From a virus: 39,400 bases of DNA. The stretch is from positions 1 to 39,400 of the IMG/VR virus record IMGVR_UViG_3300018020_000011. One strand, given 5' to 3'. Below the pieces are notes generated by a model. It saw only the letters and a list, made by a program, of their open reading frames with translations. It had not been told where the DNA came from and made no database searches. Positions 3,213 to 30,868 of the stretch are shown here, piece after piece (the first letter of the stretch is position 1; each line of letters starts with the position of its first letter). A program made the position numbers and the translations under genes.

Positions 3213-3213
3213 C

Positions 3214-3729: not shown

Positions 3730-3730
3730 T

Positions 3731-3874: not shown

Positions 3875-3882
3875 ACAATCTT

Positions 3883-4312: not shown

Positions 4313-4539
4313 CGTCTCTCCTTCCTGCTCTCGCACTCGACGCAACGCACGGCATCCGGTTTGGCCTCAAGTCTCTTTGGCGGGATATCGAGCCCGCAAT
4401 CCACGCAGTAAGCAATTCCATCGATGACCTGCGCCCGCTCCGGAGGCTCGAAGAGATCAATGCCGCGGCGCTTCAGATAATTATCCACCGATTGCTGAAT
4501 TTCCCTGTCATTCTGCTGAGCCCTATCGATGATGTCCAT
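4309..4539 (-). CDS. TraR/DksA-type C4 zinc-finger protein
   Basis: The 76-residue protein carries the TraR/DksA zinc finger: C45-x2-C48 and C66-x2-C69 with the spacing CVDCGLDIPPKRLEAKPDAVRCVEC. The N-terminal half is one charged helix, as in TraR. Short phage and plasmid members of this family enter the secondary channel of RNA polymerase and mimic DksA plus ppGpp, changing host and phage promoter use; that role is known for F-plasmid TraR and is inferred here. It lies 3 bases after the CII-like gene and overlaps the next gene by four bases. Confidence 0.88.
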   Translation of the reverse strand: MDIIDRAQQNDREIQQSVDNYLKRRGIDLFEPPERAQVIDGIAYCVDCGLDIPPKRLEAKPDAVRCVECESRKERR

Positions 4540-4542
4540 GCG

Positions 4543-4881
4543 TCACTTCACGAGTCCCACGATTTTCTTGAAAACCTCGATTGCTTTTTCCGGATCAGAA
4601 TCCTTCAATTCCTTTACGTCGTCCGGCGTAAGCAAGAGACAGCCGCAATCGCGCGCGATTCTTTTCAGCATCCAGTAATCCCTGAGATCCCTGGTAAGCT
4701 TGACCAGCCATTCGATGGGCGCATAGTAAGGGTTTCCGCTTGTCGTGGAGCGGTTCGGGTTGATGACGTTGTAGAAGTGATTCCTTGAGATATCGTTCCT
4801 GCGGAAGATATCAGTGCGCTCTTCATGCCTGGCCGCCCTGTCGATCATCTTGTCGAACATCTCGCCATAGGAATCGGACAT
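4543..4881 (-). CDS. CII-like phage regulatory protein (CP76 family)
   Basis: The 112-residue product has the order typical of phage regulatory protein CII/CP76: an N-terminal helical, HTH-like part (DISRNHFYNVINPNRSTTSGN) followed by PIEWLVKLTRDLRDYWMLKRIARDCGCLLL, the pattern of this family. Such proteins control the lysis-lysogeny choice. The ribosome site GAGGAGGG lies just upstream and runs straight on from the T-tract of an intrinsic terminator, so the gene is expressed only when that terminator is passed. It heads the early operon with the DksA-like gene 3 bases downstream. The family call comes from pattern recognition, not a search. Confidence 0.7.
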   Translation of the reverse strand: MSDSYGEMFDKMIDRAARHEERTDIFRRNDISRNHFYNVINPNRSTTSGNPYYAPIEWLVKLTRDLRDYWMLKRIARDCGCLLLTPDDVKELKDSDPEKAIEVFKKIVGLVK

Positions 4882-4890
4882 TTATGCCCT

Positions 4891-4939
4891 CCTCAAAACA
4901 AAAAAGCAGGTCGAATTTCGTGCTGGAATTTCGACCTGC
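4891..4939 (-). terminator. Intrinsic terminator immediately upstream of the CII-like gene
   Basis: On the minus strand a 10-bp perfect stem (GCAGGTCGAA / TTCGACCTGC, 4930-4939 with 4906-4915) with a 14-base loop is followed directly by TTTTTTGTTTTG. This is the best intrinsic terminator in the window. It stands between the putative early promoter at about 5.6 kb and the CII-like gene, the position of tR1 in phage lambda. Confidence 0.85.
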
Positions 4940-4984
4940 GAATTGGATATCCAGAATGCCGCTGATCTGTGGTGTTGCAAAGGT

Positions 4985-5185
4985 TTGCGGCTGCGGTTTA
5001 TTCTGCAGCCGATTGAAGGAGGTATAAAGTTGATGTGCGTCATGCCGGATCCTTTTCTGGTTGAGAAAGTTTTTATTCCGTGCTATGCAACGCTTTCAAG
5101 CCGGTTCTGCGGGAGCATCCCGCCAAGAATCCCCCGCATGACCGGCAGAGCGGAAAAGGGCCTTTCCGCGTTTTCTTCTCTGCAT
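4985..5185 (+). other. Strongly structured stretch, possible leader or small RNA
   Basis: Three hairpins follow each other: CGGCTGC/GCAGCCG (4988-4994 with 5005-5011), GCGGGA/TCCCGC (5109-5123) inside CCGGT...ACCGG (5101-5145), and GCGGAAA/TTTCCGC (5150-5169) followed by GTTTTCTTCT, which looks like a weak plus-strand terminator. They lie before the 84-residue gene. The density of stems suggests a functional RNA as an alternative to the short coding frame in the same place. Confidence 0.4.
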
Positions 5186-5188
5186 TGA
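5033..5188 (+). CDS. Possible 51-residue protein upstream of the lysogeny genes
   Basis: The only strong argument for coding is the near-perfect ribosome site GAAGGAGGT six to nine bases before TTG/ATG. The peptide (MCVMPDPFLVEKVFIP..., ending FSSLH) has no recognisable domain, and its sequence overlaps the hairpins noted at 4985-5185. If real it would be the first gene of the plus-strand lysogeny block, 12 bases before the 84-residue gene. I rate coding and structured RNA about equally likely. Confidence 0.35.
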   Translation: MCVMPDPFLVEKVFIPCYATLSSRFCGSIPPRIPRMTGRAEKGLSAFSSLH

Positions 5189-5200
5189 AGGAGATTGCTT

Positions 5201-5455
5201 ATGAAACAAGGAGACATATTCATACAAATTATTCATGAGGTTACGGGCAAGCCAAAAGAATTTGCCGCTGAAATGCTTGAGATCTTTAAGTCAATGATCC
5301 CCGGGCCGACTAAATTTGATGAAGAGATATCCGACGAAGAAGCTGAAAGTCTACTAATTGAACTTCGGAAAGAAAAAGAGGGAATTGCCAAGTTTATCAT
5401 CGACGGTTACCTTCGCTTTTTTTTGCGGAAATCGCCTCCTTCAGGCTCTGCTTGA
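5201..5455 (+). CDS. Small acidic protein of the lysogeny block, unknown function
   Basis: The start at 5201 is chosen because AAGGAG lies seven bases upstream; a TTG two codons earlier is too close to it. The 84-residue product (MKQGDIFIQIIHEVTG...) is helical and acidic in the middle (FDEEISDEEAESLLIELRKEKEG) with a basic end. No domain is recognised. Its last 59 bases overlap a minus-strand small gene tail to tail, so transcripts from the lytic direction would be antisense to it. Confidence 0.55.
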   Translation: MKQGDIFIQIIHEVTGKPKEFAAEMLEIFKSMIPGPTKFDEEISDEEAESLLIELRKEKEGIAKFIIDGYLRFFLRKSPPSGSA

Positions 5456-5540
5456 TTGCAATGCCGATAAATTCTTGAAATTCGGCCTGCAGTTTTGGAT
5501 CCGGAATTGTTTGATTAAGGAATTTTTGCCATGCGGTCAT
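5397..5540 (-). CDS. 47-residue protein in the cro-like position
   Basis: This frame reads away from the repressor gene in the lytic direction. It has a good ribosome site (GGGAGG, five bases before ATG) and lies 61 bases from the repressor start with a divergent control region between. The peptide starts MTAWQKFLNQTIPDP and is a single amphipathic helix with a basic end; no helix-turn-helix is visible, so it is not an obvious Cro. It could be an antitermination or anti-repressor peptide, or only the leader of the early transcript. Confidence 0.5.
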   Translation of the reverse strand: MTAWQKFLNQTIPDPKLQAEFQEFIGIAIKQSLKEAISAKKSEGNRR

Positions 5541-5610
5541 AGGTTCCTCCCATTTTTAAATTTATGAATCTGGGACGGAGAAATAAACTAATCTAAACGT
5601 CTTGTCAAGA
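5541..5610. promoter_or_regulatory. Divergent switch region: operator-like palindrome and early promoter
   Basis: The space between the repressor (plus) and the 47-residue gene (minus) carries an 11-base palindrome TCTTG-T-CAAGA at 5600-5610. It contains a perfect minus-strand -35 box TTGACA (5603-5608), with AT-rich -10 candidates (TTTATT, 15-base spacing, or TATTTC, 17-base) and overlaps the TTG start of the repressor. A second weak minus-strand candidate is TTTATT-17-TAAATT nearer the 47-residue gene. An operator overlapping the early promoter and the repressor's own start would give repression of lytic genes and autoregulation. Promoter strength cannot be judged by eye. Confidence 0.5.
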
Positions 5611-6195
5611 AAAAAAACGCATAAATCTGATTATATTTTATTCGCTAAGAATATCAGCAAGATAGTCTCTGATAATGGGGGGAAATATGCTGTCGCGGCA
5701 GCTTTGAATGTAGTTTATGACTCCATCCGCAGATGGTGCAAGGGAGAAAATCTGCCCGATGGTCAACAACTCCTCGCCATCCGTGATAAATTCAATGTCT
5801 CCATCGACTGGCTTTTTACGGGCACAAGACCTTATGCGGTTCCCGCTGATCTAATAAATGACCACCGGGTGCGAGAACATCGCTGCGAATTCTGCACCAC
5901 GATTTCGGAAGAGACAAAAGAAATTTGCACAAAAGTGAAAAATATTATAGAATCCGAACATCCTATCATCGTGCATGGAATAAAGGTTGCGATTGAAGTC
6001 TTAGAGGATGCCATCAAGCAAACCGAGGAAATTAAAAAAATCAGAGAGACGGCAACCAAACTTCGGAGGAACTGGAAACGTACGGAGTTGTCATTGGTGG
6101 AAGGAAATATAGAGCCGATTCCCCAGCGGAGAACGTGTGACCCGTGTCCCCTCTTAACGCATCCCGACACAGAACAGCGAGACAAAAAAATATGA
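5602..6195 (+). CDS. CI-like helix-turn-helix repressor
   Basis: The N-terminal 75 residues form a lambda-repressor-type HTH: NISKIVSDNGGKYAVAAALNVVYDSIRRWCKGENLPDGQQLLAIRDKFNVSIDWLFTG, ending with the SIDWLFTG signature of phage repressors. No Ser-Lys S24 peptidase domain follows; instead there is a helical, charged segment (about 90-165) and a Cys-rich tail, so induction by RecA-stimulated self-cleavage is unlikely. The only possible start is TTG at 5602, with no ribosome site at proper distance (GGGACGGAG lies about 20 bases upstream), so a leaderless message like that of lambda cI is possible. It is divergent from the early operon and precedes a membrane protein and a lipoprotein gene. 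Confidence 0.8.
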   Translation: MSRKKTHKSDYILFAKNISKIVSDNGGKYAVAAALNVVYDSIRRWCKGENLPDGQQLLAIRDKFNVSIDWLFTGTRPYAVPADLINDHRVREHRCEFCTTISEETKEICTKVKNIIESEHPIIVHGIKVAIEVLEDAIKQTEEIKKIRETATKLRRNWKRTELSLVEGNIEPIPQRRTCDPCPLLTHPDTEQRDKKI

Positions 6196-6230
6196 TTCAT
6201 GTTCATTTTTAGTCAATAGGAAAGGACATT

Positions 6231-6410
6231 ATGGATGCCGTCGCTTTAACATTCTTTTTTGCGATTCTTTTCTTCGCCATCGCAATAGCCATCCTGCGAT
6301 GGGTCCTGCGCATCAATCATATCGTCGATAGACTGGATCGCATTGTAAACCAACTTGAGAGCATCATCAATGCGTTGAAGGCCGGTTTTAAGATTGAAGA
6401 GACCAAATAA
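6231..6410 (+). CDS. 59-residue membrane protein of the lysogeny block
   Basis: A clear small gene between the repressor and the lipoprotein, with an AAAGGAC site just before ATG. The peptide has a hydrophobic helix (LTFFFAILFFAIAIAILRWV, residues 6-25) followed by a heptad-like amphipathic helix (INHIVDRLDRIVNQLESIINALK), so it is probably anchored with a cytoplasmic or periplasmic coiled coil. Being next to the repressor and a lipoprotein, it may be expressed in the lysogen. A REP-like repeat begins right after its stop. Confidence 0.7.
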   Translation: MDAVALTFFFAILFFAIAIAILRWVLRINHIVDRLDRIVNQLESIINALKAGFKIEETK

Positions 6411-6440
6411 CTGGATTCCCGCTTCCGCGAGAATGACATT
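6411..6440 (+). repeat. REP-like inverted repeat, copy 2
   Basis: Same unit and orientation as at 3883-3912 (CTGGATTCCCGC...GAATGACATT), with one mismatch in the stem (GCGAGAAT in place of GCGGGAAT). It begins directly after the TAA of the 59-residue gene and ends about 33 bases before the lipoprotein gene. Confidence 0.75.
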
Positions 6441-6473
6441 AGGACCAACGCATCCCGCCAAAGGAAAAAAATC

Positions 6474-6935
6474 ATGAAAAGGATTCTGATCATCGCAATC
6501 GTGGGAGTCATGCTGGCGGGGTGCATGCCCAAAATGACAGCGCCTAATTCTGAAGAATTGCAGATTGAAAGAATATTTCAAGTACGCAATCTTGATAAAG
6601 ATGAAATATTTGAACGGTCAAAGATGTGGATGGCAAAGAACTTTAAATCAGCAAAATCCGTCATCGAATATGAAAATAAAGAAAAAGGCGTAATCATAGG
6701 AAATGGCACTACAGATATATATATAAAAATAACCCTCCCTCGTATAGTCGCTACATTCACGATGCAAGAAGATATCAAAGATGGAAAGGTTCGCCTGAAG
6801 ATCGATAACGTTCAGCAGGCGGGGGGATATCCGATTTATTCAGAATTTAAAAAGCCCGTTCAGAACGAGATAGAGCTTTTAACATACGGTCTTCAGATAT
6901 ATCTCACGAACCCCACCAACCGGGAAGACTGGTAA
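6474..6935 (+). CDS. Lipoprotein with DUF4468-type domain
   Basis: The first 17 residues are a lipoprotein signal peptide with lipobox LAGC, so Cys17 should be lipidated and the protein anchored in the envelope. The mature part (DKDEIFERSKMWMAKNFKSAKSVIEYENKEKGVIIGNG...ATFTMQEDIKDGKVR) matches the DUF4468 pattern, a TBP-like fold found in bacterial lipoproteins of unknown role. It is on the plus strand behind the repressor and meets the tail fibre chaperone gene tail to tail with four bases between stops. Position suggests a lysogenic-conversion gene, perhaps for superinfection exclusion; this is inference. Confidence 0.8.
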   Translation: MKRILIIAIVGVMLAGCMPKMTAPNSEELQIERIFQVRNLDKDEIFERSKMWMAKNFKSAKSVIEYENKEKGVIIGNGTTDIYIKITLPRIVATFTMQEDIKDGKVRLKIDNVQQAGGYPIYSEFKKPVQNEIELLTYGLQIYLTNPTNREDW

Positions 6936-6939
6936 ATCT

Positions 6940-7416
6940 CTAAGCCTTCTTCGCGTTCATCACCGCCGCAACTGTCGGCATTGCGGAAATGGATGTCGGC
7001 AAATCCGCCTCGACGAGAACGCCCTTGGTCATCAGCGCCGCCACGAGGTCACATAGAGGGTCGGGCAACGGCGGAGGCGGCTGAGACGTCCATTGCGTCC
7101 CGTCCCACACGGGAAATTCGCAAGGCGCCAGTAATGTAAAGCCCTCAGGGATTGCTCCTACCTCTGCAATTATCATTTCACTGGCATCCGACGTCTTATA
7201 TATCCTGGTTCCTCTGTGATCTTCGATCTGCGTCCACGCTCCGTTCTTGAAGATCCGCGCATTGCCTTCCGCTGCATCAGGCGGCGCCACTACGGTCGAA
7301 TGCGCGGGCATTAGATAAACTTCTTTGCCCTGATTCAGCGACTCAAGCGGATCAAGGGGAGCATCCTGCGATCCGATGTATTCCCCCGTTTGCCAATGGC
7401 AATTATAAATTTTCAT
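6940..7416 (-). CDS. Tail fibre assembly (chaperone)-like protein
   Basis: The protein starts MKIYNCHWQTGEYIGSQDAPLDPLES and continues with LMPAHSTVVAPPDA, FKNGAWTQIEDHRGTRIY and EVGAIPEGFTLLAP: the order and wording of small proteins coded next to phage tail fibres and taken as fibre assembly factors. I start at ATG 7416, five bases after GAGGAG; a GTG six bases upstream overlaps that site. It is the last gene of the late unit, ends with TAG, and directly follows the collar-type fibre gene. Its C-terminus holds a small helical module (DLVAALMTKGVLVEADLPTS). Confidence 0.7.
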   Translation of the reverse strand: MKIYNCHWQTGEYIGSQDAPLDPLESLNQGKEVYLMPAHSTVVAPPDAAEGNARIFKNGAWTQIEDHRGTRIYKTSDASEMIIAEVGAIPEGFTLLAPCEFPVWDGTQWTSQPPPPLPDPLCDLVAALMTKGVLVEADLPTSISAMPTVAAVMNAKKA

Positions 7417-15839: not shown

Positions 15840-16500
15840 GCCCCGAATACCCTTGTTGCGTACGCCTCGAGTTCTTCTACCGTCAATTGTCTCTCCTTCA
15901 CTTCCGGAGCGTCACAAAAGTTCATGAAATCGGCGGCCGTGAAGGGCTCGGGACGCGCCTTCGAATCCCTGTTTATATTTGCGGTCAGGGCCATTTGCTG
16001 CCCGTGCCTCAGCTCCGCCCTGTATTCCCCGAATGGATCTATATTGCTGTAATTAAGCCAGCCGTTGAGTTGGCGCGCCGTCAGGCACTGGAGGAGATGA
16101 TCGGGATGAGGAAATCCCAGGTGAAGCGCCAGCCGGTAGAGGAACAATTCCCGCGGCCGGCTCCTTAATTTTTTGATTCGTCTCCCGCAAGGCCGTTCAT
16201 GCGCCGCGCCGCCCGAGCAAGCGCGCTGAATCGCGCAGACGCCGCCTTCTCCAGAAGCGCCGCGTCCTCATCCGAAAAGATGCGGTTCCCGGCATCGTCG
16301 ACCACACTCTTGGCGACAAGGGCGGGAATAAACTTCGACATGACGATATCGCCGCTCTCGTTTTGGAGTTCCTTCCGGGTATAGAGATCCATCAGGTCCT
16401 TTGCCCCGATTTCGGAGAGAATCACTTCTCCGCCTTCCACGGCGATCGTTTCCTGCTTCAGCTTCATCAATTCGAGAAGCGCATTTCTGTCAAGGCTCAT
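15836..16500 (-). CDS. Tail assembly chaperone frameshift product (gpGT-like)
   Basis: Two overlapping frames form a lambda G/GT pair. The first, 16500-16165, gives a 111-residue gpG-like protein. The second, in the -1 frame and open through the slippery site down to 15836, encodes LALHLGFPHPDHLLQCLTARQLNGWLNYSNIDPFGEYRAELRHGQ, typical of tail assembly protein T. A slip would make one 221-residue protein. In lambda, G and GT bind the tape measure protein and help the tube polymerise; both must be made in a set ratio. The T frame has no ribosome site of its own, which supports the fusion. Confidence 0.75.
16165..16500 (-). CDS. Tail assembly chaperone (gpG-like)
   Basis: This is the unshifted product: 111 residues, MSLDRNALLELMKLKQETIAVEGGEVILSEIGAKDLMDLY..., ending AGDESKN. 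The size, place just after the tail tube gene and acidic helical end fit the gpG class. AAGGTG lies before the ATG, in the 19 bases between the tRNA 3' end and the start codon. The slippery site lies in its last three codons. Confidence 0.75.
   Translation of the reverse strand: MSLDRNALLELMKLKQETIAVEGGEVILSEIGAKDLMDLYTRKELQNESGDIVMSKFIPALVAKSVVDDAGNRIFSDEDAALLEKAASARFSALARAARRMNGLAGDESKN
16168..16174 (-). promoter_or_regulatory. -1 programmed ribosomal frameshift site (A AAA AAT)
   Basis: Read on the minus strand in the gpG frame, ...TCA AAA AAT TAA: the heptamer A-AAA-AAT has the X-XXY-YYZ form and lies directly before the stop. A -1 slip continues TTA AGG AGC into the T frame. A GC-rich stretch follows (GGAGCCGGCCGCGGG), which could pair and slow the ribosome. 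Confidence 0.75.
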
Positions 16501-16519
16501 AAATCACCTTTTCAATCTT

Positions 16520-16595
16520 TGGTAGCGAGGGAGGGAGTCGAACCCTCTATTTTCAGCTTATGAGGCTGATGAGATAACCGTTTCTCCACCTCGCG
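16520..16595 (-). tRNA. tRNA with CAU anticodon (Met or Ile2 type), inside the tail operon
   Basis: The 76 bases fold into a full cloverleaf: acceptor stem GCGAGG/CCTCGC with a C1-U72 mismatch at the end, D stem GAGA/TCTC with an AACGGTTA loop, anticodon stem TCAGC/GCTGA around CTCATAA, five-base variable loop, T stem GAGGG/CCCTC with loop TTCGACT, discriminator A and encoded CCA. The anticodon is CAU. It lacks the three G-C pairs of initiator tRNA, so it is an elongator Met tRNA or, if C34 becomes lysidine, tRNA-Ile2 reading AUA. It lies between the tail tube gene (11 bases) and the chaperone gene (20 bases) on the same strand, so it must be cut out of the late message. Confidence 0.93.
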
Positions 16596-16605
16596 AAATC
16601 CAATT

Positions 16606-17271
16606 TTATGACCTGGTCACGGCGCCGCTGATCTGTATTTCAAAACTTCCGGTCTGCACACCGTCAACTGCCGCATCCGGCAGCGTCCCGAATTTCAGGA
16701 TGGAGCCGCTAAAGGTCCTGATGCTTCCGCCCGTCAAGACCACCTTGAAGGCGCACACGACGGAGCCGACAAAAGCGGCAAGAGCCGCCTGCTGACCGGG
16801 ATCGCTGACTTTCTCGAAATATTCCATTGCGACGGTGCCATTGTCGATAAGGCCCGACTCGAATTCCTTTGCCAGACTATCCAGATCCGTAACATCGATC
16901 TTGCTTGCCTGCGCCCCGGCCGGTTTAATGGATTTGATCTCCTTGATCTGTGTCCAGTCCGCCGGCGTCGCGTGTGCCGTGCCGATGGTGATCGTCTTTC
17001 CGGCCGTATTTATATCGACCGCGAAAGTGTCGTTGACGGCGCCTGTTGCGACGTGATGGGCGACTGCCGTCTGGCCGTTGATCAGGGCATCATCTCCCCC
17101 GGCGAAATTACTGTCGAAGGTTACGACGTCGCCGTTGGCAATGCCTGCATGGCCGGTCATGGCCAGGATAGTCGGATAACCGCACACGATTGCCGTCAGG
17201 GCCTCCGATGCGCCGGCCGCCCCGGCAATATAAATTTTACATCCCTGTGCTAATTGAGCTGCGATAGACAT
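16606..17271 (-). CDS. Major tail tube protein
   Basis: The 221-residue protein shows the siphophage tail tube pattern in its second half: ASKIDVTDLDSLAKEFESGLIDNGTVAMEYFE, then DPGQQAALAAFVGSVVCAFKVVL and GSILKFGTLPDAAVDGVQTGSFEIQISG, which match lambda gpV-like proteins. The N-terminal part (residues 1-105) holds an extra Gly/Ala/Asp-rich beta segment. A good AGGAGGACA site precedes the ATG. It follows the tail terminator-like gene and is followed by the tRNA. Confidence 0.88.
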   Translation of the reverse strand: MSIAAQLAQGCKIYIAGAAGASEALTAIVCGYPTILAMTGHAGIANGDVVTFDSNFAGGDDALINGQTAVAHHVATGAVNDTFAVDINTAGKTITIGTAHATPADWTQIKEIKSIKPAGAQASKIDVTDLDSLAKEFESGLIDNGTVAMEYFEKVSDPGQQAALAAFVGSVVCAFKVVLTGGSIRTFSGSILKFGTLPDAAVDGVQTGSFEIQISGAVTRS

Positions 17272-17297
17272 GTTTATGTCCTCCTTTGATTAAAATT

Positions 17298-17705
17298 TTA
17301 GCTTCCGCAGTTAAAATCCATGTGACTGTAAAATCGACGCGTTTCCTCTTCAAAGCCGTCCACCGCGACGGAAGAAGAAAAATTGAATAAGGCCAAAGCA
17401 TTCGTATCCGGATCCGACGTCTGTGCGAGAACCGACGCGGCAGCCATAGCCGCATTCACGGCGGCTACGGCAGCCACCAGGTACGACGTATTCACGGCAT
17501 AGACACTGATCTGCACGCGCGGCCTCTCGGTGCCGGTGTCTCCCTCAAGATCCTCCCAGCACTCGCCGCCCAGGATCGAAAAGACGCCAAATGTTTCTGC
17601 AACGGCCCCTGCGGATCCGTCCGGGTCCGGATGCTGTATATAGTAAAGCTCGCCTTTGAAAACCGGCTGGTTCAAAATAGCGTCTATGTGCTCCTGGATG
17701 TTCAT
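17298..17705 (-). CDS. Tail terminator/completion protein (DUF3168-like)
   Basis: The start codon at 17705 shares a base with the stop of the head closure gene (TGATG); the same frame upstream is only an overlap without a ribosome site. The 135 residues (MNIQEHIDAILNQPVFKGELYYIQHPDPDGSAG...RPRVQISVYAVNTSYLVAAVAAVNAAM) have the length and build of small tail terminator proteins, and the gene order head closure, terminator, tube is canonical. Identity at sequence level is weak, so position counts most. Confidence 0.6.
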   Translation of the reverse strand: MNIQEHIDAILNQPVFKGELYYIQHPDPDGSAGAVAETFGVFSILGGECWEDLEGDTGTERPRVQISVYAVNTSYLVAAVAAVNAAMAAASVLAQTSDPDTNALALFNFSSSVAVDGFEEETRRFYSHMDFNCGS

Positions 17706-18034
17706 CAGATTCCCTTCACTCCCGATTGGCACATGATGTTTATCTCGCGGCGCCGCAGTCCGACGTCGTCCGGTTTCCCGATAATGCTGTAGATCGTCCC
17801 ATTTGCGTCGACTATGCGCATATTCGCCCTCAGATTCGGAATATAGCGGACGGTGATTCTGTAATCCGCGCCCGGCCATGCCGCCTGTGCATTCGCGCGG
17901 TCGTAGCTTTTGAGCTCGTTGATGGACGCCCAGGCCTGCCTGAATGTTTCCCAAGTGGTCGACGCCACGCCGGCGCTCTTTGTGATCACCGGCATCTGGA
18001 TCGTGATCCTGTGTCTGAGGTCTCCGGATCTCAT
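17705..18034 (-). CDS. Head closure / head-tail adaptor protein
   Basis: The start MRSGDLRHRITIQMPV and the WETFRQAWASINELKS and IIGKPDDVGLRRREINIMC segments are those of the phage head-tail adaptor family (SPP1 gp16-like), which seals the connector below the portal. Length of 109 residues is normal. It overlaps the connector gene by four bases and the next gene by one. Confidence 0.85.
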   Translation of the reverse strand: MRSGDLRHRITIQMPVITKSAGVASTTWETFRQAWASINELKSYDRANAQAAWPGADYRITVRYIPNLRANMRIVDANGTIYSIIGKPDDVGLRRREINIMCQSGVKGI

Positions 18035-19293
18035 AGGAAATCATCCCAAAGTTTGACGCTTGCCAATAATCTCTGCGGAACCACGTTTTCATCGATGGCG
18101 GCTCTGCTCGTGGCTTCGATAAAGGACTCGCGATGCTCGTACATGTCGGCTGCGATCATTTTTATGGCGGCCTTTATCTTATAGGGGACGAGCGTTGCGT
18201 CTGTCCATCCGCAGACGAACCTGATCGAGATCGGATGCGAAGGAAAGAGCATACCCGTCGGCCAAACGATTCCCCAGGGAAGAACGATGCGGCCGCACTG
18301 CTCGCCGTTGGTCTCCACGATATAGTCCGTATTCTCGACCAGGGTAGTCTCCACGCCATTGACGTCCTTCCATTTGACGTACGTCACGCTCTGCAGGTTC
18401 CCGAACGGCAGCCTCATATAGTAATTGTCCAGGTAGCGATTCTGGAAATAGGCATTCTGGTACTGTTGCCCCGAATGCAGGGAAGGAATGCCGCGATGGC
18501 CCCAGCGTCCCGGCCAGTTCGGCGGGAAATAATCCCACGTCTGCGTCAGAAGGACGCGCCTGGTCATGTCCTCCACATGTTCCCTCGCTGCAACGAGAAT
18601 CGTCGTCAGCAGGTCATCGTCCGTCGCTGTGGAGGCATTCCTGAGGATATCAACGCCGAACTCGCAAGACGCCATAAGGACTTTTGCCACAACGCGGATG
18701 TATGCCTTCGATCCGGTATAGGCCTTTGAGAAAGTGGCGTTGTCGTTGGCAGTCGTCACCTGGGTAAAGGCACCTCCGGTCCAGTCCGTGAAATGCGCGT
18801 CGACGTTGTCGTCGGATTCCTGGATCTTTACATCCAGGGTGGCCGTAGCGGCATTCGTGCCGGAGACGAGGTCGACCAACGCCTGGTATCCGAGGACATC
18901 AACGGCGGCGCCAAGAATTGTATATCCCGTGGCAAAAGTCGGGTTGGCTGCGCCCTGGTCCGCGGAATTCGTTCCGTTCGAGATTATCTCGCCCAGGGTG
19001 AAGGCTCCAGACCTGCTCTTGACGATATAGGTTTTCGTTGTGATCACCGTGACGATGAGACAGGTTTCATGGCTTGTGGCCCCGGTAAGCGTGTCGCCGG
19101 CTGCCCACCCTGTCCCACCGGGCGCGACGTCGAGAGTCAACAGTTCATAATCGATGCCATATGACTTCGGCGCAATAGATTGCGTCGAATCCACGTTATC
19201 GGCAAAGGATCCCGAATCCAGACGCAGATGGTCCTTCAGCTCCTGCAGGCTTATCGGCTCAATTGTCGGGGCCACGTAGCGAATGAGTTTCAT
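18031..19293 (-). CDS. Head-tail connector (gp6-like) with a large inserted beta region
   Basis: Start 19293 is preceded by AAGGA; the frame extends further but without a site. The ends match gp6/gp8-like connectors: PISLQELKDHLRLDSGSF at the start, then TDDDLLTTILVAAREHVEDMTRRVLLTQTWDYF and the C-terminus up to KIKAAIKMIAADMYEHRE. Normally the first helix and the DDLLT helix are nearly adjacent; here about 190 residues (33-222) are inserted. They hold one module with AAGDTLTGATS...GAFTLGEIIS and one with ATLDVKIQESDDN...FTQVTTANDNA..., both beta-rich types seen in phage structural proteins. The insert should project from the neck. Confidence 0.82.
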   Translation of the reverse strand: MKLIRYVAPTIEPISLQELKDHLRLDSGSFADNVDSTQSIAPKSYGIDYELLTLDVAPGGTGWAAGDTLTGATSHETCLIVTVITTKTYIVKSRSGAFTLGEIISNGTNSADQGAANPTFATGYTILGAAVDVLGYQALVDLVSGTNAATATLDVKIQESDDNVDAHFTDWTGGAFTQVTTANDNATFSKAYTGSKAYIRVVAKVLMASCEFGVDILRNASTATDDDLLTTILVAAREHVEDMTRRVLLTQTWDYFPPNWPGRWGHRGIPSLHSGQQYQNAYFQNRYLDNYYMRLPFGNLQSVTYVKWKDVNGVETTLVENTDYIVETNGEQCGRIVLPWGIVWPTGMLFPSHPISIRFVCGWTDATLVPYKIKAAIKMIAADMYEHRESFIEATSRAAIDENVVPQRLLASVKLWDDFL

Positions 19294-20091: not shown

Positions 20092-20634
20092 TTAAAGTAT
20101 TTGTATCCGCTCTTTCCAGCGCGGCACCATTTCTTCTAATTCACCGGGCCACCATGCCGTGTCGCCCGTTTTTGCTCCATGCCAGATATAAACTGCCTCG
20201 GCACACCAAACTATGTGATCGCTCTCCTCAAGGTTGATCGTCTGATGGCCTTTGAGCTGTTTAATCAATCCGCCCCAATCATACGAAGTGCCTAGAGAGG
20301 CTGGATGCGGCGGGAAAGCCCTTTCTTCTATCTGCGGAATCTCTATCCTGTATTCATTCTTCAGCGGATACCAATATGCTTTGCCTTTGTAGTTCTGTAA
20401 AACATTGGATAGATAATCTCCCTGTACTCCGCCCGACACAGCTTCATGCAAATATCTTCTCCGCACTCCAGTGTATGGAGATTCCATGAGGACGATCATT
20501 CCCGTATGGTTCGTATCCCTTCCTGTCTTCCAGCGGATCTCCGGCCCGGGGATATCGGCCCCTGCAAATTCTACGACGTCTCCCGTTCCCATTTGATCGC
20601 ATACTGGACTGTATAGAGCCAGATTGTCGCTCAT
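20092..20634 (-). CDS. Permuted NlpC/P60 (YiiX-like) papain-fold hydrolase
   Basis: The order of catalytic residues is permuted: GDVVEFAG at residues 18-25, then NHTGMIV with His43, and a late Cys in IVWCAEAVYIWHG (Cys144), preceded by YDWGGL (118-123). This matches the permuted papain-like amidases (YaeF/YiiX, DUF830). Such enzymes cleave amide bonds in peptidoglycan peptides or lipid amides. With a GH108 glycosidase two genes upstream it may be a second wall-degrading activity. No signal peptide is present, so it would leave the cell through the holin, if at all. Confidence 0.65.
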   Translation of the reverse strand: MSDNLALYSPVCDQMGTGDVVEFAGADIPGPEIRWKTGRDTNHTGMIVLMESPYTGVRRRYLHEAVSGGVQGDYLSNVLQNYKGKAYWYPLKNEYRIEIPQIEERAFPPHPASLGTSYDWGGLIKQLKGHQTINLEESDHIVWCAEAVYIWHGAKTGDTAWWPGELEEMVPRWKERIQIL

Positions 20635-20647: not shown

Positions 20648-20959
20648 CTACCTTTCCTGTCTTTGCCTGCGCTTTTGGTCGTCTCTGATCTCTGACAAGA
20701 GAACCTTAATGCCTGACAGGTCTTCCCGGGACTGGGCTATCGTTTCCTTGGCTGCCTTGAGATCTTCCTTGATAACTACGTGAGTGCTCTCAATCACGCA
20801 CATTCTATTCTCATGGTCGACGCTCTTCGCTGACACCCAACCTACCCAGGCAGAAGTTAAAAGAGTGCCTACACTGACGACAACAGTTATGATCGTCTTG
20901 ACATTGCTCTTCATGGCTCCGTTGGATATCCTGATAACCTCATGCGTGGGTTCACCCAT
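20648..20959 (-). CDS. Membrane-anchored coiled-coil protein, possible spanin or holin partner
   Basis: The 103-residue protein has one membrane helix (about 21-43, TIITVVVSVGTLLTSAWVGW) followed by a long charged helix (VIKEDLKAAKETIAQSREDLSGIKVLLSEIRDDQKRR) with heptad spacing. This N-in anchor plus coiled coil is the layout of inner-membrane spanins, but there is no embedded lipoprotein partner. It starts 12 bases after the endolysin and ends with TAG. Confidence 0.5.
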   Translation of the reverse strand: MGEPTHEVIRISNGAMKSNVKTIITVVVSVGTLLTSAWVGWVSAKSVDHENRMCVIESTHVVIKEDLKAAKETIAQSREDLSGIKVLLSEIRDDQKRRQRQER

Positions 20960-20970: not shown

Positions 20971-21402
20971 CTATAAGTGCTTACGAATTTCTTCGTTCAA
21001 TCTCAGGACCCTGAACACATGACCCTTCACATATTCCGGCTTCGAACGGCGCAGGTATCTCTCCATCCGGAGGAGCTGGTAGTCCTGCCAATTCTGCGGG
21101 TTCTCGGATAAGAGTTCCTTATTACCGACGCCGGGAAGTTTGGGATCGTTCTGTGGATTGACCGCCGAATCGAAGAGGCATACATCGAAAGGGAAGGGTG
21201 CATCATCGCATCCCTGCGGAATCCAATATTCTTCGAGATAGACCTTCTTCGCATGATCGACGGTCGTGTTGGCATCGATCTCCGGATGATATCTCTTTGC
21301 TAGGCCCCAGATCGTGAATCCACCCGCATCATTCGGATCGTCAGAAGGCTTCCCCTCGAGACCAATCGTCAATTGAAATCCCAGATCAAAAGATTCTCTC
21401 AT
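20971..21402 (-). CDS. GH108 endolysin (N-acetylmuramidase)
   Basis: The N-terminal motif LTIGLEGKPSDDPNDAGGFTIWGLAKRYHP matches the glycoside hydrolase 108 start (EGG...NDPxDxGGxTxxG), with Glu16 as the probable catalytic acid. The middle (YLEEYWIPQGCDD, FPFDVCLFDSAVNP) agrees with the family. At 143 residues it is short for the family (usually 160-180) and lacks a clear C-terminal wall-binding domain. No signal or anchor is seen, so it needs the holin. Its ATG overlaps the stop of the zinc-ribbon miniprotein gene. Confidence 0.85.
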   Translation of the reverse strand: MRESFDLGFQLTIGLEGKPSDDPNDAGGFTIWGLAKRYHPEIDANTTVDHAKKVYLEEYWIPQGCDDAPFPFDVCLFDSAVNPQNDPKLPGVGNKELLSENPQNWQDYQLLRMERYLRRSKPEYVKGHVFRVLRLNEEIRKHL

Positions 21403-21494: not shown

Positions 21495-23501
21495 TTACCA
21501 CATACATCCAGCGCATGAACCGCCGGATATGTATTGCGTTGGCGGAATATTATAATTTACGGTTATCGAAGCACTTCCCCAATTTCCGGCTGCATCTCCG
21601 CAGCCAACGTACAAAGTATTTCCCCCTTCTGAAAATCCGGTAATTGTTCCGGACCACGAAGTGGTGCCTGTCAGACTTGTTCCATGTGTAGCATCAGGGG
21701 CGCTTCCTATCCTGCCTTTGCAGACAACCACACCGACGTCATCCGTTGATGTGCCAGAGACGGGCAAAGAATCTGATGTTATCGCGCTGGGGTCTGCAAT
21801 AGAAATATTGACAGTCGGCGGAGTATTATCTGTAATAGTCACGGAAGCACTGACAGATGAACTCACATTCCCCGCCAAATCCTTTGCAAAGGCATACAGT
21901 GTTTTCGCTCCCATCGATGAGAAGGTATGGGTTGTTGGGGCGGAAGCTCCCCATGAGCACCCTGCGCTATCATTAGTTTCAACGATGCAATATGGAGAAG
22001 CAGCGAGTGCTGTCTCATCAGTAATTGTAAAAGTGGTAATGTTTACAGTCACAGAATGTGCTGTGCCAGGAATTGCAAAAGCTGTAACGACTGGTGGAGT
22101 AGTATCAGCAGGAACCCCTCCATATTCATAAGCCCCCGCATCGGGACTCGTTACTGAGCGAGCATTGCCATCATAATCCACATTGAAAGGGGTCGCCAGT
22201 GGATTGAGTACCTGTGCGTTTGTCCCGGCTGTGGCATTTTTCAGGTGAAGGTCATACGGTGCAGAACTGCTCACAAAAGGGTCAGCGGCGATGCTGGTAT
22301 TTAGATGAGGTTCTGTAGGTGGCGTTCCCGAATTGTAGAAGGCATTATAATCATGCGAATTAGCATTAGGATTCAAATTCTCACTTGTGCCCAGGCTCAC
22401 CCCCACATTATTTACAAACAGATTATTATAAACATAAGTAGGATAGTCAAGGGTCGTATAGTAACAAACTGCACCTACTCTGGCTTGATTCCAACCTGTT
22501 ATTGTATTGTGATGTACCTTGAAGCTACGCATGATATCTGGATGAGTTGGCCCATCATCGGCACAACCTACAAAATCAAGACTGTACCCCGCACCTCCTC
22601 CTATAAAAAGGTTATTAAATATTTCCCAATTATCATTATGACCTCTTCCCACCCCTCCGCTAAAGTCGTGCACCCAAACCATGCCTGGGTCGAACATATT
22701 ATTTTTTATAATGGCATTCATCGCGCCCTGACCGGTCAATGTCTCATTATGACAAGAATTAGTTGGACACTGACCGTCATCGTTATTCCACGTTGGCGTG
22801 AAATAACAACCATCCACAACGGCATTCGGAAGACCCATGAGTGCGACGTGTACACAAGTTCTATCAAACCGAATGTATTGAAGGAGTATATCAGTGCCGG
22901 GATTAGCACCCTCATTTTCGAAACCCCCTTCACAAGCGCCTGGGCACTCTCCACACCCATCCACCCATATATTTCTGAAGACTATATAGGAAGCATTGGT
23001 GTTAGTGTCCAAATATGTCATCCAATGGGTCACTGCACAGGTTGACTTAACCCTGAACCCATATTCTGACCCATCATGCTTACCTTTTGAATTTGGTGTT
23101 ACCCCATCAAATACCCAATTATTACTCTGTACAATAAGAGTTCCATAATCAACACCAACAAAAACAGTCTGATTAGCATAAGAAGCATCCCAACCTTGAG
23201 TGCTTGAATTGCAAGCAGCTCCTCCTGCCGTTGCCTTCTTTACTGTGACGCTGGCACACTGTCCGGTGCATGTAGTTGAAAGTTGTTTAGATTCATAAGT
23301 CCCGCCGCCCATCCAATAAATGTTTCCTCTATAGAAGGTGTCTCCACTCTTCCCATTCCACGCCTGGGCATTTGCCCAGGAACTACCTGAACCATCACTT
23401 CCTTCCGGAGCAGTTGGAAGCATGCAGACATTACCCGCGAAGGATGTTGATGATAGGATAAAGGAAAATAAGCTGAATAGAATTAAGATAAACTTTTTCA
23501 T
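21495..23501 (-). CDS. Exported right-handed beta-helix protein with Ig-like domains
   Basis: Start 23501 is preferred (MKKFILILFSLFSFILSSTSFA, a Sec signal peptide; AAAGG upstream). The mature part begins NVCMLPTAPEGSDGSGSSWANAQAW. Residues about 40-430 have repeated N/V/F turns (YIVFRNIWVDG, AIIKNNMFDP, WEIFNNLFIGG, FKVHHNTITGW, TYVYNNLFVNN), a pectate-lyase-like parallel beta helix, closing with DYDGNARSVTSPDAGAYEY. Two Ig-like domains follow (starting DTTPPVV and DNTPPTV) and the end is CAGCMW. This build is common in secreted surface proteins and depolymerases; catalytic residues are not evident. The DNA is visibly richer in A/T than its neighbours. A tail spike would not need a signal peptide. 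Confidence 0.78.
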   Translation of the reverse strand: MKKFILILFSLFSFILSSTSFAGNVCMLPTAPEGSDGSGSSWANAQAWNGKSGDTFYRGNIYWMGGGTYESKQLSTTCTGQCASVTVKKATAGGAACNSSTQGWDASYANQTVFVGVDYGTLIVQSNNWVFDGVTPNSKGKHDGSEYGFRVKSTCAVTHWMTYLDTNTNASYIVFRNIWVDGCGECPGACEGGFENEGANPGTDILLQYIRFDRTCVHVALMGLPNAVVDGCYFTPTWNNDDGQCPTNSCHNETLTGQGAMNAIIKNNMFDPGMVWVHDFSGGVGRGHNDNWEIFNNLFIGGGAGYSLDFVGCADDGPTHPDIMRSFKVHHNTITGWNQARVGAVCYYTTLDYPTYVYNNLFVNNVGVSLGTSENLNPNANSHDYNAFYNSGTPPTEPHLNTSIAADPFVSSSAPYDLHLKNATAGTNAQVLNPLATPFNVDYDGNARSVTSPDAGAYEYGGVPADTTPPVVTAFAIPGTAHSVTVNITTFTITDETALAASPYCIVETNDSAGCSWGASAPTTHTFSSMGAKTLYAFAKDLAGNVSSSVSASVTITDNTPPTVNISIADPSAITSDSLPVSGTSTDDVGVVVCKGRIGSAPDATHGTSLTGTTSWSGTITGFSEGGNTLYVGCGDAAGNWGSASITVNYNIPPTQYISGGSCAGCMW

Positions 23502-23521
23502 ATTATGCAACCTTTTTGAAA

Positions 23522-24100
23522 TTAGGGTGTGCATCCGTATACCTGAAAATCGTGCACATAATTTACATTACATGCCCAAGTCGTTCCGTCAGTGCTATTA
23601 CAATATCTTGCTCCCAATAAATAGCGATAAGCTCTAGACGTTGCCCCGCTTTCTGTCTTGAATACCAACCAATATGTTGTTCCTGTTAGCTGTGTCGGTG
23701 TTGCGAGAACGTATGTGTCGTTCGTCATACTTGTTTGCAAGGTCGGATTCGTTACTGATGTGCCCGTTACAAGGGCAAGGGGACAGTCATTTCCTGCATC
23801 ATGAGAGTAAATCATTGCAGATGCTGTTCCCCCACCTGCGGCACGTTGTTCACGAATAACATATTCAGTAATCGTAGAATCTGCCGTGACTGTAATTTTC
23901 GTCGCCGTCCATGCATTATTGCTCGCGTCCGTGGCTGTCGTAAGCCTGTCAATCAGGAGGGTCTGATTGTCAATGGTACATACGCCGCCCGTCGCACCCG
24001 ACCCGACGACCATCTTGGCAAGTTGGATTTCCTCAGCAGGGCAAAGTGACGCAGACAAAAGAATCACGAGACTGAAAAATATGGACAGGTGTCGTTTCAT
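23522..24100 (-). CDS. Exported protein with lectin-like beta sandwich
   Basis: The first 22 residues form a Sec signal peptide (MKRHLSIFFSLVILLSASLCPA), preceded by GAGGTGA. The Cys within SLCPAEE could also be read as a lipobox-like site, but SASLC is a poor match. The mature part has the pattern of a choice-of-anchor/lectin-type domain: ITEYVIREQRAAGGGTASAMIYSHDAG, LTGTTYWLVFKTES, ending DFQVYGCTP. Six Cys residues suggest disulfides outside the cytoplasm. Probably binds sugar or wall material; second last of four exported genes. Confidence 0.65.
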   Translation of the reverse strand: MKRHLSIFFSLVILLSASLCPAEEIQLAKMVVGSGATGGVCTIDNQTLLIDRLTTATDASNNAWTATKITVTADSTITEYVIREQRAAGGGTASAMIYSHDAGNDCPLALVTGTSVTNPTLQTSMTNDTYVLATPTQLTGTTYWLVFKTESGATSRAYRYLLGARYCNSTDGTTWACNVNYVHDFQVYGCTP

Positions 24101-24108
24101 ATCTCACC

Positions 24109-24840
24109 TCAATCTATCGTGTAATAAAAACACATTGTCGCAAAGGTATTCGTCCCCGTTACCGAAGTCGTATGCCACCAGATGCCGTTATTCGCCGCGA
24201 TGCCGGGGTTATCGAGTACACCGCCATCAGAGGTATTAGCAGTCCAGACACTTGCGACCGTGGCGTCTATGTCTACATCCACAGGTGTCAGAGAAGTACA
24301 TACTCCACTCGTGCCGGTGCATTCATCGAACTGACCCTGCAGGTCGGTCGATCCGATATGATAGATCCTCACGCCCGTAATTGTGATGGCATAAGGAAAT
24401 ATTGCCACGGGGAAATCATCTGTGGCGACCAGGGCCTTCACCGTCGTGCAGTTGGAGAAGACCTGCGCCTTTGTCAAGGCAGTCTGCAATGCCCCATTCA
24501 CAATAAACTTTGGGACACCTGCCACGAAGACAAGGCCATAGGTTGAGGCCGTTGGCGAGAAAGTCGAATTATTTCCCATTAGCAGTTGCCGAGAGCCGTC
24601 AGCGGCATTGGGAACGCTGGAAAGGGCGAACGTGCCGTCAGAACCGCACTGATAATATGCGCCCGTGTCCGTAGCATAATAGATCGCCGGGGCGGAACAA
24701 GACCCGGGAAGGTTGGCGGCAATACCTGCGGAATAGGGAAGACCGCTACCTATGCCTGCCGGCATAGGGGGAATGGCAGATGCGGTCCCGAAAGTAAAAA
24801 AGATCGATAAAATTGCAAGAATGATTTTGATTTTTTTCAT
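24109..24840 (-). CDS. Exported beta-rich protein, unknown function
   Basis: MKKIKIILAILSIFFTFGTASA is a clear Sec signal peptide and GAGGT precedes the start, overlapping the end of the gene before. The mature part begins IPPMPAGIGSGLPYSAGIAANLPG, then a Gly/Ser-rich linker and a C-terminal beta domain (VKALVATDDFPVAIFPYAITITGVRIYHIGSTDLQGQFDECTG...). Five Cys residues are placed as for disulfides. I do not know the family; the C-terminal half resembles beta modules seen in phage and extracellular proteins. Confidence 0.65.
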   Translation of the reverse strand: MKKIKIILAILSIFFTFGTASAIPPMPAGIGSGLPYSAGIAANLPGSCSAPAIYYATDTGAYYQCGSDGTFALSSVPNAADGSRQLLMGNNSTFSPTASTYGLVFVAGVPKFIVNGALQTALTKAQVFSNCTTVKALVATDDFPVAIFPYAITITGVRIYHIGSTDLQGQFDECTGTSGVCTSLTPVDVDIDATVASVWTANTSDGGVLDNPGIAANNGIWWHTTSVTGTNTFATMCFYYTID

Positions 24841-24846
24841 GTCTGC

Positions 24847-25335
24847 TTACCTCGAAAAAATCAATTCAATGCTGTAATTCGCGCTATCCGTCGCCTGGTT
24901 GGATACCGTCACAGTGATCGTCGAAGTTATCGGCGGATATCGATATGATGATATAAAGGAACTATATGGCACGACGTCATAAGTCGCCGTCGGATGGATT
25001 AGATTAGCGCCTTTGCCTCCGAGCAGATCCTGGCCATTCATCAACACTGCGACATCGGCCGCATCCGGCGCTGTTCCACCCGGCGTGTGATATGCCTTGA
25101 CTGAAGCGAGCCAATAGAAACCCGTTATCAAATCCATAATGTCCGAACCGACGGTCTGCGTCGGTATGGATCCGTCTGTCGAATCGCCGGTACAGACAAA
25201 AACGACTTTCACAAAACTTCCGGGACCGTATGTATATGGAGTCTGGACGCATGATCCTGCGACTGCCCATGCATTTGAGGCCATCAACATAACGGTCAAG
25301 ATGATGGAAATAATCATTGCGGTAATTTTTTTCAT
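24847..25335 (-). CDS. First gene of the exported cassette, unknown function
   Basis: The second of two nearby ATGs (25335) has the better distance, eight bases, to AGAGG; the first lies only two bases away from it. The signal peptide MKKITAMIISIILTVMLMASNAWA ends at a good AxA site. The mature part (VAGSCVQTPYTYGPGSFVKVVFVCTGD...ITVTVSNQATDSANYSIELIFSR) is beta-rich with one Cys pair, about 138 residues. It is preceded by a terminator-like hairpin, so the exported genes may be partly uncoupled from the head genes. Confidence 0.65.
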   Translation of the reverse strand: MKKITAMIISIILTVMLMASNAWAVAGSCVQTPYTYGPGSFVKVVFVCTGDSTDGSIPTQTVGSDIMDLITGFYWLASVKAYHTPGGTAPDAADVAVLMNGQDLLGGKGANLIHPTATYDVVPYSSFISSYRYPPITSTITVTVSNQATDSANYSIELIFSR

Positions 25336-25349
25336 ATTCATGTCCTCTT

Positions 25350-25391
25350 TGAAAGAAAGGCGGGGCGACGGAGGAAAGCAATCACCCCGCC
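25350..25391 (-). terminator. Terminator-like hairpin between head genes and exported cassette
   Basis: On the minus strand GGCGGGG (25385-25391) pairs with CCCCGCC (25359-25365), followed by TTTCTTTC. The loop is long (19 bases) and the T-run broken, so it would reduce but perhaps not stop transcription. It resembles the hairpin at 3376-3405 in having the same TTTCTTTC ending. Confidence 0.5.
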
Positions 25392-25421
25392 CGGGGAATG
25401 CCTGCGGTTCAGTTATCGTCT

Positions 25422-26024
25422 TTATAGTTTCGCTTCTGCGTACGCTCCATCACTGCCGGCCGTGTAGTGCAGAACGGCCTTGAAACTGCCGCTGCCTTGG
25501 GTTGCATCAGAGGACAGGATACCGATGGTTCCGACGAAGTCCTGGCCGCCCACAATCTGTGGCGATGTCGGGAGCACATCGGAAAGGCCCGGCGAATCTG
25601 TGATCACCGCGGCTGTCGCCACTGCTCCGCCGACCCAGACGATCCTTCCGCCCTGGCCGAGGCTGGTGATGGCGGCGCACTTGGCGCACATCGGGTTAGC
25701 CGCGATCACAGGCGTCGTGAACGTGCAGTTGAAGAGAACCTGTGTGGCGTTTGCGGAACAGGCGACGACAATCTCCAAAAAGAGCTGATGCACGAAGATT
25801 CGTCCGAAGACATTGAATAATTCGGTCTGCACTCCGCCGGTCTTCAGATACGTAGCATTCGCCAAGATCGCAGTTTCGACTCTCAGACCCAGTTTGAGAT
25901 CGCTGATCGTCTCAATTGTTGATGGGGGATAATTTCTCACTTTTTCTTCCTCCTTCTCGTCTTTTGCTTTAGAGGCATCCGTCGCCGGATTGCCTGTGAC
26001 ACTTATCTTTTTCGCCTTCCCCAT
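25422..26024 (-). CDS. Head-associated structural protein, unknown
   Basis: The 200-residue product has a Lys/Glu-rich leader (MGKAKKISVTGNPATDASKAKDEKEEEK) and a beta-rich body with VFGRIFVHQLFLEIVVACSANATQVLFNCTF and a CAKC pair, ending FKAVLHYTAGSDGAYAEAKL. Similar small beta proteins lie after the capsid gene in many phages and may decorate the capsid. It starts inside the preceding small gene (56-base overlap) with no good ribosome site, so coupling is likely. Confidence 0.55.
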   Translation of the reverse strand: MGKAKKISVTGNPATDASKAKDEKEEEKVRNYPPSTIETISDLKLGLRVETAILANATYLKTGGVQTELFNVFGRIFVHQLFLEIVVACSANATQVLFNCTFTTPVIAANPMCAKCAAITSLGQGGRIVWVGGAVATAAVITDSPGLSDVLPTSPQIVGGQDFVGTIGILSSDATQGSGSFKAVLHYTAGSDGAYAEAKL

Positions 26025-30811: not shown

Positions 30812-30840
30812 TGGCGGGATGACTGACTGTATGGCGGGAT
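30812..30840 (-). promoter_or_regulatory. Direct repeat at the late start site, candidate operator
   Basis: TGGCGGGAT occurs at 30812-30820 and 30832-30840, exactly 20 bp apart, two helical turns, so both copies face the same side of the DNA. One copy overlaps the -10 box and start site of the late promoter. A protein bound here would block initiation. Confidence 0.5.
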
Positions 30841-30868
30841 TATAATGGGGATGAAATTAGCGAGTCAA
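30839..30868 (-). promoter_or_regulatory. Sigma70-like late promoter before the portal gene
   Basis: On the minus strand TTGACT (30863-30868) and TATAAT (30839-30844) are separated by 18 bases, a near-consensus promoter pointing into the portal gene. Transcription should begin near 30832. This is the clearest promoter in the window. Confidence 0.75.

Follow-up and report, generated by a model that had tools for sequence, protein, structure and literature searches.

Four consecutive predicted exported proteins, several with fibre- or adhesin-like relatives, in the late gene cluster of a tailed phage

The fibres of tailed phages are generally regarded as cytoplasmic in synthesis and assembly, and those of the virion are not known to carry an export signal. 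What, then, might be the function of four consecutive signal-peptide genes that lie between the head and lysis genes of the IMG/VR virus record IMGVR_UViG_3300018020_000011, on the minus strand from position 25335 down to 21495? The window, that is, the whole stretch of DNA analyzed, is a single virus record of 39,400 bases that may be partial. The initial annotation had described these genes as four Sec-exported proteins and as a candidate for an undescribed system. The export of an adhesin-like module is well supported by our data, and a role can be proposed for it: we give a probability of about 0.4 to the reading that the block is a phage module of late exported, fibre-like adhesins, which would mask surface receptors and would limit superinfection and the loss of progeny on debris.

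Export signals at the site between head and lysis genes

Signal peptides were called with a home-made rule that requires a basic N-terminus, a hydrophobic segment free of charged residues, and a cleavage site of small residues; of 1448 shuffled N-termini, 7 passed this rule in its strict form and 54 in its loose form. All four genes of the block passed the strict form, which confirms the claimed signal peptides, each N-terminus containing these three parts with K or R in the n-region. Cleavage is predicted at ...SNAWA/VAGS, ...GTASA/IPPM, ...SLCPA/EEIQ, and ...STSFA/GNVC in genes 1 to 4, respectively. The residues that follow are thus V, I, E, and G, and a lipobox, which has a cysteine at +1, was found in none of them. 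Gene 1 (24847..25335, minus strand as for all four; 162 amino acids (aa), or 164 aa from an ATG at 25341), whose homologues we call family 1, encodes a signal peptide and a jelly-roll domain. Gene 2 (24109..24840; 243 aa) encodes a signal peptide, a short stem, and a C-terminal tip domain; gene 3 (23522..24100; 192 aa) a signal peptide and a choice-of-anchor R-type domain; and gene 4 (21495..23501; 668 aa) a signal peptide, a Cys-rich body, and a C-terminal Ig-like domain. For gene 4, the start at 23501 is the one that fits its ribosome site, while the longest ATG frame would give 679 aa. The genes are separated by gaps of only 6, 8, and 20 bases.

Relatives were gathered by their capsid protein and comprised 116 loci (the best 80 of 569 viral loci, 6 further ones, and 30 genome loci). 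Counts were made over 98 loci, the near-identical contig L007 being excluded and 17 genome loci with mostly Clostridia-type titles being tallied apart; genes on the same strand, of at least 60 aa and with a start codon, were counted, and the site was taken to run from the last head gene to the head-tail adaptor. Strict signals were present in 16 of 179 genes at the site versus 2 of 781 elsewhere, and the occurrence of signal genes at this site is thus not due to chance. Their rarity elsewhere in related loci agrees with the initial view that such signals are unusual. The Fisher p value was 1.3e-10, and 1.4e-8 (13/176 at the site) when two near-copies and one fragment were left out, but since related contigs are not independent, these values are only a guide. 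The 16 genes were divided equally between sites with two borders (8/119) and sites cut by a contig end (8/60). Outside the site, no strict signal was found in 111 head, 74 capsid, and 183 tail genes, and two were found in 413 upstream genes; two others, among 104 genes of regions lacking a border homologue, were left unplaced. The 17 Clostridia-type loci gave 0/4 site genes, 0/30 capsid and tail genes, 0/173 unplaced genes, and 2/163 upstream genes. At least one strict signal gene was observed in 5 of 20 complete sites and in 6 of 27 open ones. Not all 16 entries are fibre-like, as the strict list also includes small proteins of the membrane or lysis type, such as those of L066 and L096.

These signals could be spurious, i.e., the hydrophobic N-termini of ordinary cytoplasmic virion proteins. 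The use of a home-made caller only, and the existence of family 1 members lacking a signal, would fit this explanation, as would the predicted signal peptides that a Porphyromonas phage study reports on major capsid proteins, from which the prohead protease presumably cuts them off (PMC10367356). However, few shuffled N-termini pass the strict rule, strict signals are nearly absent elsewhere in the same loci and wholly so from the 74 capsid genes, all four genes carry a signal in three phages, and one gene of the phage G012, described below, has a start like that of twin-arginine (Tat) substrates. We consider spurious signals very improbable.

Recurrence of the ordered set in other phages

The order family 1, fibre-like protein, sandwich protein, and beta-helix-like protein is common to the window, L002, and G012, in line with the proposal that the four genes form a real unit, and comparison of the encoded proteins shows that this ordered set recurs in phages with different portal proteins. 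The portal of L002 differs from that of the window and is 24-32% identical to the portals of HMO-2011, Pelagibacter, Roseobacter, and Rhizobium phages. Starting two genes past this portal, L002 contains four syntenic signal genes, all strict, which encode a relative of gene 1 (30%), a fibre-repeat protein of 711 aa ending in a gene 2-type tip, a protein that is LamG-like by eye and whose start resembles that of gene 3, and a long protein whose Ig-like domain is 59% identical to that of gene 4. A 257-aa gene situated between the portal and these four genes (L002:6701-7474) looks caspase-like by eye.

G012, the full record of locus L010, has no set at the head site; instead, seven exported genes follow its tail genes. 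The first four encode a family 1 protein of 157 aa, a fibre-like protein of 786 aa and a sandwich protein of 202 aa (both by eye), and a beta-helix-like protein of 435 aa. They are followed by genes for proteins of 453, 189, and 299 aa and by a small membrane protein gene. The 189-aa protein has the twin-arginine start, which scored 15.7 bits with TIGR01409, slightly below the cut-off of 16.7. This Tat-like gene stands amid six Sec-type neighbours (L134:3492-4061, minus strand).

At the same site as in the window, L077, which belongs to the capsid lineage of the window, encodes an exported family 1 protein (48%) and an exported beta-helix-like protein. A further reduced set was found in contig L165, in which a phage tail protein (PHROG E 2e-148) is followed by a family 1 gene (profile E 5e-12), a 168-aa gene, a 337-aa gene, and a membrane-protein homologue. 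The family 1 and 337-aa genes have strict signals and none was called on the 168-aa gene; the 337-aa protein is beta-helix-like by eye and gave no family match. The membrane protein resembles the small membrane protein of G012 (30%, E 3e-12) and is unlike the holin-like gene of the window. L165 belongs to a genome, whose bin may include foreign contigs, from the phylum of a Desulfocapsa-titled genome, which we take to be Desulfobacterota. In the sample from this phylum, the family 1 profile matched 2 of 395 genomes, one of them partially, indicating that family 1 is rare or under-sampled, and PF03406 matched 1 of 395. The profile matched none of 396 genomes in the phylum of an Acidobacteria-titled genome, a sample with no known positive, and 2 of 294 in the phylum of a Methanoperedens bin. 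Weak partial profile matches were given by L164 and L168, and no signal-gene set was found in the region (L166) around L164. L004 and L005 matched with 49% over 35 aa, and the match in L004 was dropped, as it falls in a long frame judged to be non-coding.

Searches of 50,697 phage records by tblastn with genes 2 and 4, the 711-aa and 207-aa proteins of L002, and the 453-aa and 435-aa proteins of G012 found nothing; gene 3 was not among the queries, and gene 1 matched only Methanosarcina virus MetMV. Defence-system models gave no match for five window proteins.

There is almost nothing at the site in L010, where it spans 72 bp, or in L122, where the flanking genes are 20 bp apart. Such a scar-free absence in relatives, which the initial annotation had regarded as arguing against a system when combined with an ordinary host island, was therefore observed, but the host island was not, the relatives of these genes being found among phage genes. 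By our reading, none of nine longer records (G017-G025, read fully or nearly so) contains a fibre-like set of this kind, and several of them hold one or two signal genes, some in doubtful frames. Single small or mid-sized signal genes, fibronectin-like or propeller-like by eye, were seen near lysis-type genes in set-less relatives (G021 17266-18570, G023 7064-7396, L064 10030-10416, and L088 13547-13945). In L066, a related phage, a gene that is glycosyltransferase-like by eye (16376-17137) adjoins the genes of the adaptor and the tail.

Relatives of the exported proteins among fibres and receptor-binding proteins

Outside the MetMV group, all five full-length family 1 members (window, L077, L002, G012, and L165) have signals, as has a 73-aa fragment at the contig end of L030. 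Signals are lacking in MetMV, in metagenomic L024 and L025, and in the Methanoperedens bin, which together represent two distinct sequences. In MetMV and its relatives, the family 1 gene, which lacks a signal there, immediately precedes a gene that is of the receptor-binding type by eye, and downstream of the latter a homologue of the 180-aa protein encoded at 20092..20634 (minus strand) in the window was found in three of four contigs (35% identity in MetMV), the fourth contig ending earlier. An AlphaFold (AF2) model of family 1, with a predicted local distance difference test (pLDDT) score of 83, is beta-rich and matches jelly-roll chains. Foldseek searches of a viral library gave seven matches at E 0.001, the top one being an unnamed 141-aa protein (28% identity, template modelling (TM) score 0.60). 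The best rows from solved structures, when re-aligned, were a phage baseplate protein, a Pam1 capsid chain, a plant satellite virus capsid, a protease domain, and a phage tail fibre.

The tip of gene 2 is 71-73% identical over 141-147 aa to the end of the exported 711-aa protein of L002, where it is borne by a different stem, a mosaic arrangement. This L002 protein matched PF03406 Phage_fiber_2 (27 bits, cut-off 22) and a PHROG tail fibre, but no match to PF03406 or to a fibre family was found in the window proteins themselves. A third case of the tip, in the 453-aa protein of G012, is a weak one: in a database of 23 proteins this protein matched at E 0.004, by itself it scored 11.7 bits, and it was absent from profile hits at E 10. 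Gene 3 matched the NCBIfam choice-of-anchor R family NF041539 with 31.5 bits, above the curated cut-off of 30. The Cys-rich body of gene 4 can be aligned over 439 residues (25%, E 1e-12) with the exported 435-aa beta-helix-like protein of G012, and the Ig-like domain that it shares with L002 was recognized by eye, its Pfam matches being sub-threshold. When genes 2 and 4, the family 1 profile, and the L127 protein described next were searched by sequence against solved structures, no relative scored below E 0.001.

At the same site, contig L127 exports proteins of 222, 109, and 537 aa. The first reads like a fibre and gave no family match, and the 537-aa protein shares 51% identity over 439 aa with the variable protein of L024, the target of an apparent diversity-generating retroelement (DGR). 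Related sets would include a homologue of a hypervariable receptor-binding protein. In L024 (357-4434), a MetMV-like contig, an apparently full DGR, with a variable protein, an Avd-like gene, a template repeat, and a reverse transcriptase (named by eye), adjoins the signal-less family 1 gene, whose receptor-binding-type neighbour is the apparent target; the template and variable repeats differ at 15 of 30 A positions versus 5 of 90 others. Homologues of the L127 protein were found in 23 records, none covering more than 80% of its length, and no signal-peptide start was present in the three homologous records read (CP220, an H. ganmani prophage, and MT835557). Exported proteins with a tail-fibre-like start, again by eye and with no family match, were also seen in L058 and L059. 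The action of a DGR on the set itself found no support: RVT_1 was found in none of 12 records, which may be fragments and include the window, G012, and the 11-kb contig of L127, and this contig holds no second copy of the variable region beyond single 10-mer matches. When L127 is compared with the L024 template, the differences are scattered, falling on 17 of 27 A positions and on 26 of 72 others, and so only common descent is claimed.

Taken at the level of sequence, these comparisons show that the domains have their relatives among phage fibres, in receptor-binding neighbourhoods, or among adhesion proteins. The separation from virion parts drawn by the initial annotation is modified by this, in that several of these proteins with export signals look like fibres of the virion or like neighbours of receptor-binding genes. 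The fibre- and sugar-binding-like relatives suggest that some phages may send fibre-like adhesins out of a cell that is soon to burst.

Proposed role, known systems, and genetic context

We propose that the four proteins would be made late, passed through Sec into the envelope, and folded there, outside the cytoplasm, in line with a cysteine content higher than that of the virion proteins (counts below). They may stay bound to the surface or be freed at lysis, and their fibre tips and lectin-like domains would bind receptors or surface glycans on the host, on debris, and on neighbours. Adsorption sites would thus be masked at or before lysis, so that infected cells would not be superinfected and progeny would not be wasted on debris, by analogy with Llp of T5. 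According to a paper on T5 (PMC9586334), Llp blocks adsorption, exclusion proteins limit phage adsorption to lysed fragments, and the purified receptor-binding protein of T5 blocks later infection. The Llp and Cor lipoproteins are, like the proteins of the block, phage-encoded and exported; however, Llp is a small lipoprotein made early, whereas the window proteins are larger, fibre- or lectin-like, and in a late position, and blocking is here a proposal.

The nearest described proteins are bacterial, the exported, phage-fibre-like mosaic adhesive trimer (MAT) adhesins of Bdellovibrio (PMC10769870), which combine a signal peptide with beta-rich and phage-tail-fibre-like parts and diverse C-terminal tips. 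The set shares with them the N-terminal signal peptide (rule-based here) and a tip borne by different stems. In MAT proteins, a conserved beta-rich domain of ~130 aa follows the signal, and family 1 is a beta domain of similar size on a gene of its own, a likeness in size. The MAT genes differ in belonging to a predatory bacterium and in making one long chain per fibre, whereas here several phage genes stand beside lysis genes. Phage tail fibres and DGR receptor-binding proteins resemble the set through the PF03406 repeat of L002 and the L127 protein, but the set proteins start with a signal peptide; the Hankyphage paper states that phage DGR proteins have no detectable signal peptides (PMC6199706). 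A global DGR survey reports signal peptides or membrane segments in most cellular target groups, whereas in three DGR clades most viral targets are annotated as tail structures (PMC8144416). The Porphyromonas phages also have genes with Sec signals and of unknown function, but passages of that study describe no fibre-like or ordered set (PMC10367356), and signal peptides or export are not mentioned in the main text of the tentaclin paper (PMC10743442). No described system with this anatomy was present among the literature matches listed, which leaves standing the suggestion of an undescribed one; because the search covered open-access full texts without preprints, this is weak evidence of absence. 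There is a real chance that this set of phage-encoded, exported, surface-active proteins is a kind of its own.

Several results weigh against the masking reading. The signals rest on a rule and not on a trained predictor, strict signal genes are missing from 15 of the 20 complete sites in relatives, and a weak family 1 match in L119 (E 4.4e-5) lacks a signal. Genes 1, 2, and 4 have no family match over a cut-off, and the AF2 model of gene 4 failed (pLDDT 33). For family 1, named phage "structural" and "tail" proteins matched with TM scores of only 0.39 and 0.36, Foldseek found no match at E 0.001 among solved structures, and the best VIA Z score was 7.5, within the common-fold range, so that the re-aligned rows, all with Z of at most 7.5, indicate a common fold only. 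The exported proteins gave no sequence match at E 0.05 with non-exported proteins of the same contigs, and a receptor shared with the virion is thus conjectural. Finally, the Beta_helix profile stayed below its threshold in L077 (24.2 vs 25.9 bits) and G012 (19.4 vs 25.9 bits).

These sub-threshold matches, with one to Polysacc_lyase_14 in the 299-aa exported protein of G012 (24 vs 27 bits), are consistent with another explanation, close to the initial suggestion of an action on polysaccharide that helps release: beta-helix- and lectin-like proteins would bind or cut polymers of the capsule, the biofilm, or the surface layer, and progeny would escape after lysis. The block adjoins the endolysin in the window, and the related sets adjoin small membrane proteins in G012 and L165. 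However, no enzyme family over a cut-off was found in any of the four window proteins, gene 4 has no solved relative by sequence, and the fibre-repeat and receptor-binding-type members need no catalysis. A polysaccharide-active set is a minority possibility that we find doubtful.

Alternatively, the genes may be lysogenic cargo, as had also been suggested, with lysogens displaying surface adhesins for attachment, aggregation, or immunity. A ~4-kb region of the window with few convincing genes (2977-6939) contains a divergent CI-like repressor (5602-6195, plus strand) and CII-like and DksA-like genes, which suggests a temperate phage; G012 has a tyrosine integrase; and display of exported phage-fibre-like adhesins is described for Bdellovibrio (PMC10769870). 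However, the block is part of the late cluster and has its orientation, the window record, possibly a partial one, yielded no tyrosine integrase, and no promoter-like match was found in the 86-base gap ahead of gene 1, the region having 8 such matches compared to a shuffle mean of 11.9, thus no excess. Lysogenic conversion seems unlikely to us. A GC-rich hairpin lies in this gap, at the end of the head block (25336-25425), and was rejected as specific evidence of a separate transcription unit: the gap folds no better than shuffles (z -0.77), our terminator-hairpin scan gave no flag on it, and such hairpins, which also occur in related set-less phages, were found about equally often before other genes (29 of 285 gaps) and before strict signal genes (1 of 8).

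A last explanation is that the proteins are virion parts matured outside the cytoplasm, disulphide-rich fibres that would fold in the periplasm and decorate passing virions at lysis. Cysteine is raised in 23 mature exported proteins chosen by us (117/7038 residues, 1.66%) compared to non-exported virion-region genes (51/5747, 0.89%, for 21 from the window and 41/4331, 0.95%, for 19 from L010). An A-G-[ST]-C motif follows the signal in three of five exported family 1 members and is found in neither of the two distinct non-exported sequences, and the fibre repeat of L002 and the virion-like matches of family 1, despite their low TM scores, point the same way. However, no virion-attachment part was identified, and signal genes are missing from most complete sites in relatives. 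We know of no precedent for such maturation and think it distinctly unlikely.

The masking reading can be widened. With somewhat less than even confidence, several kinds of tailed phage would possess an "exo-fibre" module, in which ordered virion-like adhesins are exported through Sec, and one gene product through Tat, just before lysis, either working apart from the virion by masking receptors on debris and neighbours or being completed once outside the cytoplasm and then acquired by virions at lysis. If true, either mode would give tailed phages a new means of acting outside the host cell. A recurrent export of fibre- and lectin-like proteins would amount to an extracellular arm of phage biology, bearing on superinfection exclusion, progeny protection, and biofilm effects; it would be a source of soluble phage adhesins and would provide a reading for some "hypothetical" signal-peptide genes near phage lysis genes.

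The late genes surrounding the block are all on the minus strand. Terminase, portal, prohead protease, HK97-type capsid, and three small head genes come first, the last of which (25422..25940) is the left border of the site. The four signal genes are followed by a GH108 endolysin (20971..21402; PF05838 above cut-off) and a holin-like membrane protein (20648..20959; weak PHROG holin match, E 0.036). Only after this lysis block are found the head-tail adaptor-like protein (18031..19293), which is the right border, and then the major tail, tape measure, and fibre genes. The GC content of the block is 47.5%, compared to 52.1% for the whole window, and at third codon positions it is 38-55%, versus 56-70% in named virion genes and 51-60% in lysis genes. 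A promoter-like site with 11 of 12 consensus bases lies immediately upstream of the portal (30839-30868, minus strand), such matches being no commoner than in shuffles. Lastly, a tRNA-Met gene (16520-16595) is located within the late cluster, between the genes for the major tail protein and the tail assembly chaperone.

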